Assembly: GCF_900156025.1 (NCBI RefSeq)
Contig: NZ_FTMO01000004.1
Location: 248,001-312,000 of the forward strand
DNA length: 64,000 nucleotides
Origin: Allobosea sp. TND4EK4
GTDB lineage: Bacteria; Pseudomonadota; Alphaproteobacteria; Rhizobiales; Beijerinckiaceae
Reading direction: 5' to 3'
Both the position numbers and the translations under genes were made by a program. The notes under the pieces were generated by a model. The model was given only the letters and a program-made list of their open reading frames with translations. It ran no database searches and was not told the origin of the DNA. Below are positions 15,939-37,428 of this stretch, piece by piece (position 1 is the stretch's first letter; each line of letters begins with the position of its first letter).

Positions 15939-15945
15939 GAAGGTT

Positions 15946-16101
15946 GCGGAGCCACCTCGGCCGTGGAGTTTTGAATCCCGGGACACCTACAGAAGTAGGT
16001 GGGCGCCGTGTGCCCGGCTCCAAGGATCCGGGCAGGGACAGCTCCCTAGGGAGTCGTATGGGCCCGGGGAATGCTGTCTCGCACGCACCAGGCAGCCCCG
16101 C
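15946..16101 (-). ncRNA. ssrS: 6S RNA (SsrS)
   Basis: A region of about 156 bases without coding features, directly upstream of fthC. A 12-base closing stem forms between GCGGGGCTGCCT (5' end, complement of 16101-16090) and AGGTGGCTCCGC (3' end, complement of 15957-15946), with one G-U pair and a G-U step. Inside are two long imperfect arms and a hairpin CACCTAC-TTCT-GTAGGTG, which fits the open-bubble plan of 6S RNA. 6S RNA traps sigma-70 RNA polymerase in stationary phase. Ends are approximate. Confidence 0.8.
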
Positions 16102-27618: not shown

Positions 27619-29148
27619 ATGCCGCCTCGTCCCGTAATGCTGATGATCCTCGACGGCTGGGGCTGGCGCGAGGAGTCCGAGAACAACGCGATCAAGCTGG
27701 CCAGGACACCGAATTTCGACCGGTTCTGGGCCTCGTCGCCACGCGCTTTCCTGCGCACCTCCGGCCTCGATGTCGGGCTGCCAGAAGGGCAGATGGGCAA
27801 TTCCGAGGTCGGCCATCTCAATCTCGGGGCGGGCCGGGTGGTGATGCAGGACCTGCCGCGGATCAACCAGGCGATCACGGACGGTTCGATCGCGCAGGCT
27901 CTGGCGGGGAGCGGGCTGATCGCGGCGCTGAAGGCCAGCAGCGGCGCCTGCCATCTGCTCGGCCTCGTTTCACCCGGCGGCGTCCATGCGCATCAGGATC
28001 ATGCCGTCGCGCTTGCCCGGATCGTCACCGCGCAGGGCATCGCGGTGAAGGTCCACGTCTTTACCGACGGGCGCGATACGCCGCCGCAATCGGCGGCCGA
28101 TTATGTCAGGACCTTCGAGGCGGCGCTGCCCGCGGGCGCGGCCATCGCCAGCCTTTCGGGCCGCTATTACGCGATGGACCGGGACAATCGCTGGGAGCGC
28201 GTCGAGCAGGCCTGGCGGGCGATGGTTCTGGGCGAGGGACAGCGTTTCGCCGATGCGCAGGCCGCGATCGCTGCCGCCTACGCCGGCAACGTCACCGACG
28301 AGTTCATCCTGCCGGCCGCGATCGGCAGCTATGACGGCATGAAGGACGGCGACGGGATTCTCAGCTTCAACTTCCGCTCCGACCGCATCCGCGAGATTCT
28401 CAACGCGGTCCTGGAGCCGGACTTCGCCGGCTTCGCGCGGCCGCGGGTGCCGCATCTCGCCAAGGCTGTCAGCATGACCTCCTACAGCGCCGAGCTGGAC
28501 AAGGTGATGCCGGCGCTGTTTCCGCCGCAGACGCTCGGGAACGGGCTGGGCGAGACGGTGGCCAAGGCCGGGCTCAGGCAGATCCGCATGGCGGAGACGG
28601 AGAAGTATCCGCACGTCACCTATTTCTTCAACGGAGGCGAGGAGACGCCCTATCCGGGGGAAGACCGGGTGATGGCGCCTTCGCCCAAGGTCGCGACCTA
28701 TGATCTGCAGCCGGAGATGTCGGCACCGGAACTGACGGCCAAGGCCGTGGAGGCGATCGAGTCAGGCCGCTACGATCTCGTGATCCTCAATTTCGCCAAC
28801 ACCGACATGGTCGGCCACACCGGCATGCTCGCCGCCGCGATCAAGGCTGCCGAGGCGGTGGATACGGGACTCGGGGCCATCGCGGCCGCGGTGCTGCGGC
28901 AGGGCGGGGCGCTGCTGGTCACGGCCGATCACGGCAATGCGGAGCTGATGGTCGATCCCGTCACGGGCAAGCCTCATACGGCCCACACGACCAACCCGGT
29001 GCCGCTGATGCTGATCGAGGGCCAAGAGCAAGGATCGCAGGCGCACGCCCTGGCCGATGGGCGCCTCGCCGACATCGCGCCGACCCTGCTGGCGCTGATG
29101 GGCCTGCCGCAGCCGGCGGAGATGACCGGGCAGTCGCTGCTGCGCTGA
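27619..29148 (+). CDS. gpmI: 2,3-bisphosphoglycerate-independent phosphoglycerate mutase
   Basis: 509 residues. It interconverts 3- and 2-phosphoglycerate using two Mn2+. The start MPPRPVMLMILDGWGWRE carries the first metal Asp, the phospho-acceptor is Ser62 in GQMGNSEVGHLNLGAGR, and later ligands are in NFANTDMVGHTGM and VTADHGNAELM. An in-frame codon 14 residues upstream is a less likely start. Confidence 0.95.
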   Translation: MPPRPVMLMILDGWGWREESENNAIKLARTPNFDRFWASSPRAFLRTSGLDVGLPEGQMGNSEVGHLNLGAGRVVMQDLPRINQAITDGSIAQALAGSGLIAALKASSGACHLLGLVSPGGVHAHQDHAVALARIVTAQGIAVKVHVFTDGRDTPPQSAADYVRTFEAALPAGAAIASLSGRYYAMDRDNRWERVEQAWRAMVLGEGQRFADAQAAIAAAYAGNVTDEFILPAAIGSYDGMKDGDGILSFNFRSDRIREILNAVLEPDFAGFARPRVPHLAKAVSMTSYSAELDKVMPALFPPQTLGNGLGETVAKAGLRQIRMAETEKYPHVTYFFNGGEETPYPGEDRVMAPSPKVATYDLQPEMSAPELTAKAVEAIESGRYDLVILNFANTDMVGHTGMLAAAIKAAEAVDTGLGAIAAAVLRQGGALLVTADHGNAELMVDPVTGKPHTAHTTNPVPLMLIEGQEQGSQAHALADGRLADIAPTLLALMGLPQPAEMTGQSLLR

Positions 29149-33864: not shown

Positions 33865-34400
33865 GGGGTGGGTCTAGCCGATTCGAGGGCGGGTCGGCAG
33901 CAGGGCGCCAACCCGGCGCGTCCTGCCCGGGCTCGACCCAAGCATCCCGGGACGAGGCCGCGCCGGAAGCGCGACGCGATCCCCTCCCGCTTGTGGGGAG
34001 GGCTTCGCGCTCCGCCCGGGAAGGACGGGCAGGACAAATCCCCGCCCATGCCCCAGGCATGGCGGATGTGACGAGGGGCAGCGGAGCGCCGCGAGGCGCG
34101 TGGGTATCAGGTCCGCATCCGTTGAGCCAGGACGCGGCGCGACAGGATTGAGCCACCCGTCGCACGCCCCGTGGCGCTCCGCTTCCGGCGTTCTTCAGTC
34201 TCCGGGCCGCGCTTATCGGGCTGGCGTCGCATCCGCTGTTTCGTCCGCCTGGTGGCGCTTTCAGCCGCTGGCGCCGGGTTGCGGGAGGGGCCTGTCCCTC
34301 GCCGGCCCGACACGGCCTCGTCGTCCCCTGGCTCGCGAAACCCTTGCGCGCCACCTTGCCGTCCAGCGAGCTCCTCGCGCAGGGGCCGTATTACCCCCAG

Positions 34401-34545
34401 GGCGGTGCCCCGAAGCCTCCCGAGTCCGGCTTGTGAGACCGGCCGCAGGCGCCGCCCCCACCCCCACCAACGGCACACCTCCGGATGGCTGCCCCTCGGG
34501 GATGAGGTGGTGGCAGATTAAGGGCGGTGCGGGAGGCGGGGATTA
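34401..34545 (+). repeat. Diverged direct repeat, left copy
   Basis: Begins GGCGGTGCCCCGAAGCCT and ends GGCGGGGATTA. The copy at 35159-35278 begins GGCGGTGCCCCGAAACCT and has the same end. Matching blocks inside include CCGAGT, GCCGCA-GCGCCGC and CCTCCGGATGGC versus CTTCCGATGGC. The two copies flank the DUF559 gene. Confidence 0.65.
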
Positions 34546-34566
34546 GTCTTGCGCGGGACGCGCGGG

Positions 34567-34605
34567 GAACCCCTCTCCCGGATGGGAGAGGGGCAGGGGT
34601 GAGGG
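34567..34605. repeat. CCCCTCTCC-type palindrome, family E
   Basis: GAACCCCTCTCCCGGATGGGAGAGGGG forms a perfect hairpin, followed by CAGGGGTGAGGG. It shares the GAACCC(C)TCTCC start and GAGAGGGGCAGGG with the two larger arms at 34993-35136. Confidence 0.7.
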
Positions 34606-34648
34606 ACCGCCGTTGATCGTCGATGCGATCGGCGGCAGCATCACGGCC

Positions 34649-35008
34649 ATGGCATCCGAACAGCGCCATTTCGCGAGACGACTCCGGCGCCAAGCCACCG
34701 AGCCCGAGGACATCCTCTGGTCGCTGCTGCGCAACCGCCGGCTCGACGGGCTCAAGTTCCGCCTGCAGGTTTCGCTGCTCGGCTACACCCTCGATTTCCT
34801 CTGCCTCCAGCGCAAGCTCGTCATCGAACTCGACGGCGCCCAGCATGACGCCGAACGCGACCACGACGCGGCGCGCACGCAGGAGATCGAGCGCCACGGC
34901 TTCACGGTGATCCGGTTTCGGAATGAGATGGTGCTGAACGACCGCGACGCTGTCATCGCCGCCATCCGCGGGGGGCTCGGAACCTCAACAGAGAACCCTC
35001 TCCTGTAA
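34649..35008 (+). CDS. DUF559 (Vsr-like) nuclease-fold protein
   Basis: 119 residues from the chosen ATG; a TTG 12 codons upstream is also in frame. The sequence HFARRLRRQATEPEDILWSL, NRRLDGLKFRLQVSLLGYTL and KLVIELDGAQHD is the DUF559 pattern, a small domain related to very-short-patch repair endonucleases, with D...E-x-D in DFLCLQRKLVIELDG. DUF559 proteins are widespread, and the biological role is unclear. The last codons and stop lie inside the left arm of a long inverted repeat. Confidence 0.82.
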   Translation: MASEQRHFARRLRRQATEPEDILWSLLRNRRLDGLKFRLQVSLLGYTLDFLCLQRKLVIELDGAQHDAERDHDAARTQEIERHGFTVIRFRNEMVLNDRDAVIAAIRGGLGTSTENPLL

Positions 35009-35136
35009 GGAGAGGGCAGGGAGAGGTGTCGGCCGTTTTCCGCTTGAGGCTCAGCATGGCAGCGGTGAGGTCTGCGCCCCGCTGGTCCAGGGGCCGACAC
35101 CTCTCCCCTGCCCCTCTCCTTACAGGAGAGGGGTTC
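34993..35136. repeat. Long inverted repeat downstream of the DUF559 gene
   Basis: The left arm (34993-35034) and right arm (35092-35136) are reverse complements apart from three one-base length differences in C/G runs. Each arm itself contains CTCTCCTGTAAGGAGAG, so it can fold alone. Fifty-seven bases separate the arms. It resembles a two-copy REP (REPIN-like) arrangement. Confidence 0.8.
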
Positions 35137-35158
35137 TTCCAGCGTTTGGTCCAGTTTG

Positions 35159-35278
35159 GGCGGTGCCCCGAAACCTGCCGAGTTTGGCGTTCAAAGCCAG
35201 CCGCATGCGCCGCGCCTTTCCCCGCCAATGACTTGCCTTCCGATGGCCGTCCCGGGGGGTGGAAGGGGGCGGGGATTA
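35159..35278 (+). repeat. Diverged direct repeat, right copy
   Basis: Partner of 34401-34545. It starts directly after the long inverted repeat and ends 134 bases before the low-GC ATPase gene. The gap between has a short hairpin GGTCGCC-CTTGT-GGCGACC (35301-35319) and turns AT-richer from about 35330. Confidence 0.6.
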
Positions 35279-35412: not shown

Positions 35413-37428
35413 ATGAGTATACGGATAAGTGCAACGTTTGGGGATGTTATGGCGCAGCTTTTTAAGCCTGATATGCCGGCGGTGCTGGAACGTACCCATC
35501 TTGCTGGACACGCCGACGCTTTCCTGCTGCCTGTCTATGAGGCGGGCTCGAATGCAATCCACTCTTTGCTCGACATCCACGGGGGCGCTAAGATCGCAGC
35601 CGAAGGCAAACTTGTGTTCTCGTTTTCCCTAGGCACAACGCCGGAAGAGTTCACCGTTACGATTTCCGACAACGGCTGCGGTCTCGATGACTCAAACTAC
35701 AAAGCTTTCCTCACACCTTTCACCGGTCACAAACTCAAGCGAGGCGGCAAGGGTTTTGGGCGCTTCGTGGCCTTCAAAGTGTTCAATGACGTCCTTTACC
35801 GCTCGAAATCGAAGGGGCCAAATGGCTCTATTGTCACCCGCAATTTCAAGTTCGATGTCTATGCCGACGAAGAGATCATCGATTTAATTGGCGGGAATGG
35901 TCCCGAATTCGATACGGGCTGTGCAGTCACTTTCAAGCAAATCAAGCCTTCCTATCATAAGAAGTGGGAAGAGCTGAATGCAGAGCGGATTTTGAATCAT
36001 CTCTCTAGCAATTTCCTGACTTACCTCGTCGACGGCCGCATGCCCGATACAAGAGTCTTTATTGGCGCAGAGGAGTTCGATCTACGTTCGCATTTCGCAA
36101 GCGTCTTTAGCCACGAAAAGACGCACGAGTTCCCGGTTGAGCTCAGAGATGCGTCATATCAATTCAAATGTGATGTATCACGCGTCGCCCGGGGGAAGCC
36201 GTTCGCCCGACATGCCCTGATGTTCTTTGCTGATAACCGATTGCTCGGCGCGGGGCGCGCTATTGAAAACAAACTTGGAAAATCAGCGTTCCAGAAATCA
36301 GACGGCAGTGAGTACGTTGTAATAGCTAGCTTGTCCGGCGAATTCTTCGACGAAAATGCAAACCAAGCGCGCACCTCATTGGAGGCAAGTGACGATGAGA
36401 TCCTAGAAATCGTTGATAAAGCCTGCCAAGCGATATTGGCTACAGAAAGCGAACAGCATGATAAGATAAAAAAGGACCAACGCGACGAGGTTGTTCAGTT
36501 AATTGCGCGGCATCCCCTATTACGGTATGGGCTTAATGGGATAACGATTGCCGACTACGTGAAGTCAAAGCCAAACAATTGGCGACAAGAGAACTTTGTC
36601 TCTGATCTTGCTGTTCAGCGTCTACGCGAAGAGAGGCGCTGGACGAGCTTTGTGCAAACTACCATCGCGAACAAGGAGCTTTTTGCTCAGCGGAAGGCGC
36701 AGCTTTTGCAGCGCGTCTCTGATACCTATCGTGACGCTCTTGCCGAATACATTGTGCATCGCAAGGCGGTTATCGAGGTAGCCGATCGCCTTCGAGGCGC
36801 GGATGACGCGGGCGATATGACGCGAGAGGACGCATTCCACCAACTGATGTTTCCGCGGCTTACAGATTCTGCGACTACTAAGTATTTCCAACACAATCTT
36901 TGGCTACTCGACGAGCGTCTGGCGTTCGTGTCTTACATATCGAGCGACCGCACGCTGCATGGAGGGCGACGCCAGTTAGGCGACAAAGTCACTGACGTCG
37001 CATTTTACGATGAGTGTTATGTCGCCGGCGGTCAAGGCAATACCTCCGTGGTTATTGTTGAGTTCAAGCGACCTGGGCGCGATGACTACAGTTTCGGACG
37101 CGAGGGGCAGGACCCGGTAAAACAAATACATGACACAGTTGAGTTTATTCGTGAGCGAAAATCATTCGTAACATCTTCTGGTAAGACAATAGATATACCA
37201 CCTTCGACACCTATCACGGCGATCATTGTTGCGGATATGGAGCCTACTCTGCGAAATTTGGCGCGGCGATACGATTTTGATGAAACGTGGGATAAAAAGG
37301 GCCTATTTAAGTACCATGAAGATTTCGATGTTTTTATCGAAATCCTTGGTTTCGATAAATTGATTTCCGATGCCGAGAAGCGCAATGCGGCATTCTTTGA
37401 GATACTATTAAACGACATGGGAAATTAG
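35413..37428 (+). CDS. GHKL ATPase with C-terminal D...ExK nuclease-like domain
   Basis: 671 residues, not recognised as a named family. The N-terminal GHKL ATP-binding fold is clear: Glu43 and Asn47 in PVYEAGSNAIHSLLD, DNGCG at 86-90, and the glycine-rich lid GGKGFGRF at 111-118. The middle (about 150-480) is strand-rich, then helical. The C-terminus has VTDVAFYDE with Asp528, VVIVEFKRP with Glu550 and Lys552, and Gln571 in DPVKQI: the order and spacing of PD-(D/E)xK nucleases of the Shedu/DUF4263 sort. Base composition is far lower in GC than its neighbours (29 of 60 bases in the line starting 36301). An ATG at 35449 with GGGG ahead is an alternative start. Single gene, no partner; possibly anti-phage. 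Confidence 0.8.
   Translation: MSIRISATFGDVMAQLFKPDMPAVLERTHLAGHADAFLLPVYEAGSNAIHSLLDIHGGAKIAAEGKLVFSFSLGTTPEEFTVTISDNGCGLDDSNYKAFLTPFTGHKLKRGGKGFGRFVAFKVFNDVLYRSKSKGPNGSIVTRNFKFDVYADEEIIDLIGGNGPEFDTGCAVTFKQIKPSYHKKWEELNAERILNHLSSNFLTYLVDGRMPDTRVFIGAEEFDLRSHFASVFSHEKTHEFPVELRDASYQFKCDVSRVARGKPFARHALMFFADNRLLGAGRAIENKLGKSAFQKSDGSEYVVIASLSGEFFDENANQARTSLEASDDEILEIVDKACQAILATESEQHDKIKKDQRDEVVQLIARHPLLRYGLNGITIADYVKSKPNNWRQENFVSDLAVQRLREERRWTSFVQTTIANKELFAQRKAQLLQRVSDTYRDALAEYIVHRKAVIEVADRLRGADDAGDMTREDAFHQLMFPRLTDSATTKYFQHNLWLLDERLAFVSYISSDRTLHGGRRQLGDKVTDVAFYDECYVAGGQGNTSVVIVEFKRPGRDDYSFGREGQDPVKQIHDTVEFIRERKSFVTSSGKTIDIPPSTPITAIIVADMEPTLRNLARRYDFDETWDKKGLFKYHEDFDVFIEILGFDKLISDAEKRNAAFFEILLNDMGN

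Follow-up and report, generated by a model that had tools for sequence, protein, structure and literature searches.

We analyzed a 64,000-nucleotide stretch of the genome of the soil bacterium Allobosea sp. TND4EK4 (contig NZ_FTMO01000004.1, positions 248,001 to 312,000; hereafter the window), and in particular one gene within it that encodes a 671-amino acid protein composed of a GHKL ATPase joined to a nuclease-like domain. The first-pass annotation of this DNA had proposed the gene to be a single-gene defense system of foreign base composition. The open reading frame (ORF) starts with ATG and has no internal stops, while the opposite strand has many stops in the same register. Its GC content is 50.1%, with 0.55 at third codon positions (GC3), as compared with 67.2% for the 64-kb window. 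The six 500-base windows lying fully within the gene have GC contents of 0.49–0.53, and those between positions 28000 and 45000 that do not overlap it have 0.60–0.73, so that the gene is indeed AT-richer than its flanks; GC3 in the malate synthase gene next door is 0.89. No promoter-like site was found on the gene's own strand, and terminator-like sites at the gene showed no excess over shuffled sequence.

Table 1. Features at the GHKL-nuclease locus, in window positions.
Feature	Position	Strand	Evidence
Intact GHKL ATPase-nuclease fusion, probably of paraMORC3 / VcSduA type, 671 amino acids	35413..37428	+	ORF, 96-sequence alignment, model
GHKL ATPase domain (residues ~1–180; borders approximate): E43/N47, DNGCG 86–90, K107, GGKGFGRF 111–118	35413..35952	+	HATPase_c, fold matches, invariant residues
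S5-type transducer/middle domain (residues ~181–346)	35953..36450	+	Fold alignments to Hsp90, MORC2/3/4, SMCHD1
Two long helices (392–419, 421–462) linking ATPase to nuclease	36586..36798	+	Predicted secondary structure
C-terminal PD-(D/E)xK nuclease domain (residues ~463–671): E472, D528, E550-x-K552, Q571	36799..37425	+	Conservation, strand/helix order, hhalign
Stretch with no counterpart at this site in close relative G009	33902..37501		Matches to G009
DUF559 (Vsr-like) gene in the G009-absent stretch, between imperfect 121-nt direct repeats	34649..35008	+	PF04480 (E 8.4e-38), repeats

The domain architecture was deduced from a predicted structure and from conservation. An AlphaFold model built with 96 aligned sequences has a predicted local distance difference test (pLDDT) score of 90; the single sequence alone gives 35. 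Residues ~7–350 of the model align by fold with the ATPase modules of Hsp90, MORC2/3/4, and SMCHD1, and these alignments place an S5-fold domain after the GHKL domain. Pfam HATPase_c matches the protein at E 1.4e-4, under the curated cut-off, and is found at E≤1 in 19 of the 20 family members of a second alignment (A1), which were fetched with whole-protein searches. Scans of Pfam and NCBIfam with the single window protein returned weak GHKL matches and nothing else, and a sequence search of the PDB gave one chance-like match (E 0.12), or weak GHKL matches when the 20-sequence profile was used. The two long helices that follow the S5 domain in the model are a probable coiled-coil connector. 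The secondary structure predicted for the C-terminal domain runs helix, three strands, helix, strand, and by our reading D528, E550/K552, and Q571 would occupy the classical PD-(D/E)xK places in this order.

The 96 sequences were collected through short peptide patterns. One pattern, on residues 494–502 (H-N-L-W-L-L-D-E-R), fetched all of the genome loci; it found 548 stretches in the genome collection, of which 488 are relatives by tblastn, and 80 of these were retained. Among viral contigs, 106 stretches yielded 45 relatives in 42 loci (L116–L157). The resulting 122 loci were reduced to 112 by length and coverage limits and to 95 by an 85% redundancy cut, and the window's own sequence was added. 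Nineteen columns are invariant. E43, N47, D86, G88, G90, E472, H476, D528, E550, and K552 are present in 96 of 96 sequences and Q571 in 94, a degree of retention that argues against chance occurrence of these motifs. G114 and G116 are likewise present in all 96 (and in 20/20 of A1), partly by construction, because they lie in one of the two patterns used to fetch the viral loci; the invariance of L496, W497, and D500 (also 20/20 in A1) is by construction in the genome loci, since these residues fall within the fetching pattern. All of the ATPase and nuclease residues named in the first-pass annotation were found where it had placed them, and E472, the first residue of an E-D-ExK motif, is an addition to its list. 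In the S5 domain, R276 (95/96) and R320 (93/96) are candidate basic finger residues.

Profile comparison shows the putative nuclease domain to be homologous to that of canonical Shedu SduA. A profile of residues 436–671 from the 96 sequences matches one of ten Shedu proteins by hhalign with a probability score of 96.2 (E 2.3e-9, 148 columns), and D528, the ExK motif, and Q571 land on their Shedu counterparts. The match covers residues 490–658, and E472 is outside the aligned part. Thirteen controls scored no higher than 1.1 (N-terminal part, 0.2; reversed query, 0.3; reversed target, 0.2; ten column shuffles, ≤1.1). The Shedu profile was made from nine of 14 PF14082 loci and from the Vibrio fluvialis Shedu protein P0002, which has matches among solved Shedu chains (8ti8, E 5e-34; 8ps4, E 4e-7). 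The C-terminus combines a nuclease-like order of secondary structure with a Shedu-homologous profile, in agreement with the nuclease-like domain of the first-pass annotation. A PDB search with the nuclease profile found no chain at E≤10, though the PDB holds Shedu chains. In whole-model fold searches the ATPase module filled the best 50 rows of both lists, making these in effect ATPase-only searches, and the lack of a Shedu chain among the matches listed speaks neither for nor against kinship in fold. The genome itself has no PF14082 match at E≤0.01, and exact peptide patterns detected no relatives of the Shedu protein in viral contigs.

The gene lies in a stretch that is absent from a close relative. 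In G009, 65 bases separate the NUDIX-side and malate synthase-side matches, as opposed to 3.6 kb in the window. Bosea sp. Root483D1 has the gene at the same place, and among 30 malate synthase loci, those of the window and of Root483D1 included, only these two have it in the 1.5-kb flank. A NUDIX match occurs ~135 and 265 bases away at two further loci (L178 and L183) and ~1.2 kb away at another (L187); the other 24 have none in the 1.5-kb flank. Since these arrangements differ, the spot next to malate synthase is variable. The DUF559 gene noticed in the first pass is real, although its translation could also begin at an upstream TTG (34613). It is flanked within 34400–35278 by two 121-nt direct repeats (70% alike) and by CCCTCTCC..GGAGAGGG palindromes, and repeats like these have matches at certain other loci in the genus, so that the gene and repeats may constitute a small unit that is mobile or repeat-borne. 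We dismissed the DUF559 gene as a proven partner, because it is outside the stretch shared with Root483D1, which at the GHKL-nuclease gene starts 36 bases before the ATG and has no blastn match over the DUF559 gene. Elsewhere in the window, a 6S RNA (15945–16101, minus strand; Rfam RF00013, 76.1 bits) is the sole Rfam match at the gathering threshold.

We consider it quite probable that the window protein belongs to the paraMORC3 / VcSduA type and acts as a single-gene anti-phage nuclease (or, in an overlapping sense, an anti-mobile-DNA nuclease). Among proteins tested for defense, its closest counterpart is VcSduA (A1552VC_00276), a GHKL-DUF4263 protein of the Vibrio cholerae WASA lineage (Adams et al. 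2025, PMC12137116). In the account given there, VcSduA protects Escherichia coli from Drexlerviridae and V. cholerae from phage X29, and mutation of either ATPase E27 or nuclease K557 abolishes phage defense. Cultures were protected at every phage dose tested, which its authors consider consistent with direct interference, and the growth kinetics fit host survival. By analogy, the window protein would likewise act against phages. The ATPase-nuclease fusion of foreign composition proposed in the first pass is borne out by domain make-up, active sites, and low GC, and its suggested defense role is probable.

The family is wide, with relatives on 56 plasmid records in addition to the 488 genome relatives found with one pattern and the 45 in viral contigs. 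The plasmid relatives, found by tblastn, are at best 37.5% identical to the window protein, and 41 cover at least 80% of it; 30 of the 56 records are conjugative by MOB-suite. On a tumor-inducing (Ti) plasmid and on further plasmids of rhizobia, the relative shares its stretch with integrase genes and with repC or repABC. A search of 200 genomes, the source genome among them, gave matches in 13, several of these matches being short or distant, and five of the 13 are members of the genus (own, G013, G021, G036, and G047). Among the genome-collection matches listed, the closest is Bosea sp. Root483D1 (97% identity), followed by a Sphingosinicella metagenome-assembled genome (57%). Just one of 50,697 phage records has a relative, and the V. 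fluvialis copy has no match at the DNA level in E. coli genomes. In a quick tree of 111 rows, the window copy joins those of Root483D1 and Sphingosinicella (support 100) within a clade of alphaproteobacterial copies (33 rows, support 100) that is separate from the Vibrionales copies. The Bosea sp. BK604 copy lies in another subclade, a topology that indicates horizontal transfer. Together with the distribution across phyla, these results show a patchy horizontal spread; we rejected the reading as a core gene because of this patchiness and the empty site in a near relative.

Three side observations concern family members. In G036 the gene is in pieces near a contig end (C8:237637-239234 and C9:275-562), with a stop within one piece. 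Several of the viral-contig loci make deep branches of their own in the quick tree. The Allobosea genome (G000) also encodes a second, very divergent GHKL-nuclease-like protein of 708 amino acids (C24:29333-31459, minus strand; L202:7334-9460), which is 22% identical over residues 79–555, has the motifs DIWLLSEE, ASDKPL, and IIEFKAP, and adjoins a deaminase that PADLOC names dCTPase (E 4.7e-160).

The frequency of plasmid-borne relatives, conjugative and rhizobial plasmids among them, raises the possibility that the protein mainly restricts plasmids, conjugating DNA, or rival mobile elements, as an exclusion factor carried by a plasmid or island. This explanation overlaps with anti-phage defense and is a tentative one in our view, as relatives also occur in the viral-contig loci and on genome contigs, and as VcSduA is reported to stop phages in its own host as well as in E. 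coli.

We examined by annotation names the surroundings of 17 regions chosen from the plasmid records. Eleven are near genes for restriction-modification (R-M), Shedu, CBASS, Abi, RnlAB, VapBC, or similar systems, or ten if a lone N-6 methylase is disregarded (L020, L021, L028, L032, L034, and L035 are not counted among the 11). On a V. fluvialis plasmid (L024, 8562–11956), type I R-M genes, a canonical Shedu gene, and the GHKL-Shedu gene are in a row on one strand, and the Shedu and GHKL-Shedu genes share 4 bases. The Salinivibrio gene (L025) similarly ends a series of type I R-M genes on one strand, from which Shedu is absent. Type I R-M genes are nearby on the opposite strand in L030, and CBASS-type genes are close by in L031. 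In L115, a 460-amino acid ORF occupies the Shedu position. The survey of homologous neighborhoods suggested in the first pass thus finds patchy relatives, missing from an otherwise matching site, on plasmids and viral contigs, and often near defense or toxin-antitoxin genes, rather than core single-copy genes away from defense islands.

The rows in L024 and L025 and the R-M genes of L030, along with the R-M roles that have been proposed for paraMORCs (PMC2292703), would fit an accessory of R-M systems, linked or unlinked, that does not act alone. We regard this as unlikely. By crude ORF calling, 58 of 81 loci have no same-strand ORF within 60 bases on either side, so that the gene usually stands alone, and in the window the close neighbors are farther off or on the other strand. 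VcSduA, moreover, is described as working by itself in E. coli (PMC12137116).

The GHKL-nuclease gene is under strong purifying selection. Between the window and Root483D1 copies, 21 of 671 amino acids differ, with a nonsynonymous rate (dN) of 0.016, a synonymous rate (dS) of 0.72 (0.015 and 0.50, respectively, by YN00), and a dN/dS of 0.022. The same comparison for five neighboring genes gives dN/dS of 0.21–0.39, approximately tenfold higher. These encode a NUDIX protein and what we take to be malate synthase and HD-type, glycosylase-like, and YgfZ-like proteins. The dN of the GHKL-nuclease gene is by itself 4–14 times lower than those of the neighbors, and synonymous drift toward high GC may inflate its dS. 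Of 14 family pairs tried, eight gave dN/dS values (0.022–0.24), the window and Root483D1 pair being the lowest and L053/L019 the next lowest (0.025, with dS saturated). A pseudogene or relic was dismissed, given the lack of stops and the low dN/dS.

Several observations weigh against assigning the window protein to anti-phage defense of the VcSduA type. Its defense role and the order of steps set out below are inferred from VcSduA and GHKL enzymes, and we place it in the type by its architecture, its motifs, and the numbering of its residues rather than by sequence alignment with VcSduA. No PADLOC model (PADLOC-DB 2.0.0) matches the window protein at E≤10, and three of 20 family members (two plus one, possibly overlapping) have weak matches (best E 0.011), all to models that look unrelated. 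In PHROGs the protein matches a single family, phrog_6203, of unknown function (E 2e-7). Pfam SduA_C (PF14082) does not match the window protein, and at E≤1 it is weakly matched by one of 20 and four of 44 family members (best E 0.032). Because single-sequence Pfam scans miss SduA_C, the kinship to Shedu is distant and the protein is not a canonical DUF4263 member by this test; the first-pass suggestion of a Shedu/DUF4263-like C-terminus holds by profile and by strand and helix order and fails by Pfam. Around 43 loci, PADLOC models matched at E≤1e-10 number 276 near the gene and 110 far from it (near, 120 of 172 ORFs with 48,226 amino acids; far, at distances above 6 kb, 120 of 144 ORFs with 41,056 amino acids; random draw, crude ORF calling, ORFs over 1500 amino acids skipped). 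This excess is only suggestive of defense enrichment, since the control is crude, the models are redundant, proteins were not counted, and the far set may belong to the same islands and contain defense genes.

The low dN/dS relative to the flanking genes also counts against the assignment, as it is not expected of a fast arms race. It raises the question of whether the window branch senses something that phages cannot easily change. This branch might have been kept for a steadier task outside an arms race, in which the GHKL-nuclease clamp reads a constant feature of incoming or replicating DNA (ends, topology) or maintains host DNA, an explanation we find doubtful.

For defense by the window protein, the most likely mode of action is that of an ATP-gated nuclease that would interfere directly with invading DNA. 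Two copies are expected to pair, and ATP binding would close a clamp around DNA, formed by the GHKL heads together with the S5 domains, as in Hsp90, MORC2, and MutL. The connecting helices may relay this closure to the PD-(D/E)xK domains at the C-terminus, whose predicted catalytic residues (E472, D528, E550, and K552) would cleave the invading DNA, such that the host survives. The 3.6-kb stretch absent from G009 has no evident methyltransferase (minor ORFs were outside the scan), so that the cue separating self from foreign DNA is probably the state of the DNA (ends, topology, replication) and not a sequence mark. Nucleases of several defense systems are abortive effectors that degrade host DNA. 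That the window protein destroys host DNA once triggered is nonetheless improbable, in light of the protection of VcSduA cultures at all tested phage doses. Least probable is a MutL- or MORC-like role in host DNA repair or maintenance instead of defense, which the fold kinship to MORC modules and the dN/dS of 0.022 might favor and which sits poorly with presence in 13 of 200 genomes, the empty site, AT-richness, carriage on plasmids and viral contigs, and spread across phyla.

The first-pass annotation could match the protein to no named system, and this stands for PADLOC, whose models had missed the gene, which is now tied to a published defense family. In its architecture and motifs, compared at that level rather than letter by letter, the protein fits paraMORC3 with no difference seen: paraMORC3 is described by Iyer, Abhiman and Aravind (2008, PMC2292703) as a sporadic GHKL, S5, and restriction endonuclease-fold protein with E-D-ExK at the C-terminus, of which a subset found in proteobacteria and Bacteroidetes is standalone. 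VcSduA, which its authors relate to paraMORC3 and to 'Shedu type I-D' (PMC12137116), is similarly encoded by a single gene, with an N-terminal GHKL domain, a middle clamp domain, and a C-terminal PD-(D/E)xK domain in one protein. Glu 27 and Lys 557, as reported for VcSduA, correspond in place to E43 and K552 of the window protein and to E27 and K556 of L025 and L024 (the latter counted from the A1 start; 5 and 534 from a later Met). Ahead of the Glu, the window protein is 16 residues longer than VcSduA, and it is 28–29% identical to the Vibrionales members L024 and L025.

MORC, SMCHD1, and Hsp90 share the GHKL and S5-type transducer fold over residues ~7–350; they are eukaryotic chromatin proteins or chaperones and are not known to have a nuclease domain like that of the window protein. 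Canonical SduA (DUF4263 / PF14082; PDB 8ti8 and 8ps4) has the homologous nuclease domain, with D528, ExK, and Q571 aligned, but members such as P0002 (459 amino acids) are without the GHKL module, and the window protein further differs in its lack of a PF14082 match or of a PDB chain found by its nuclease profile. The 96-sequence alignment identifies invariant positions as targets for mutation and could serve as the seed of a family model. As far as the published account goes, the family was already known to stop phages in another bacterium; what is new here is a Bosea member of that family.
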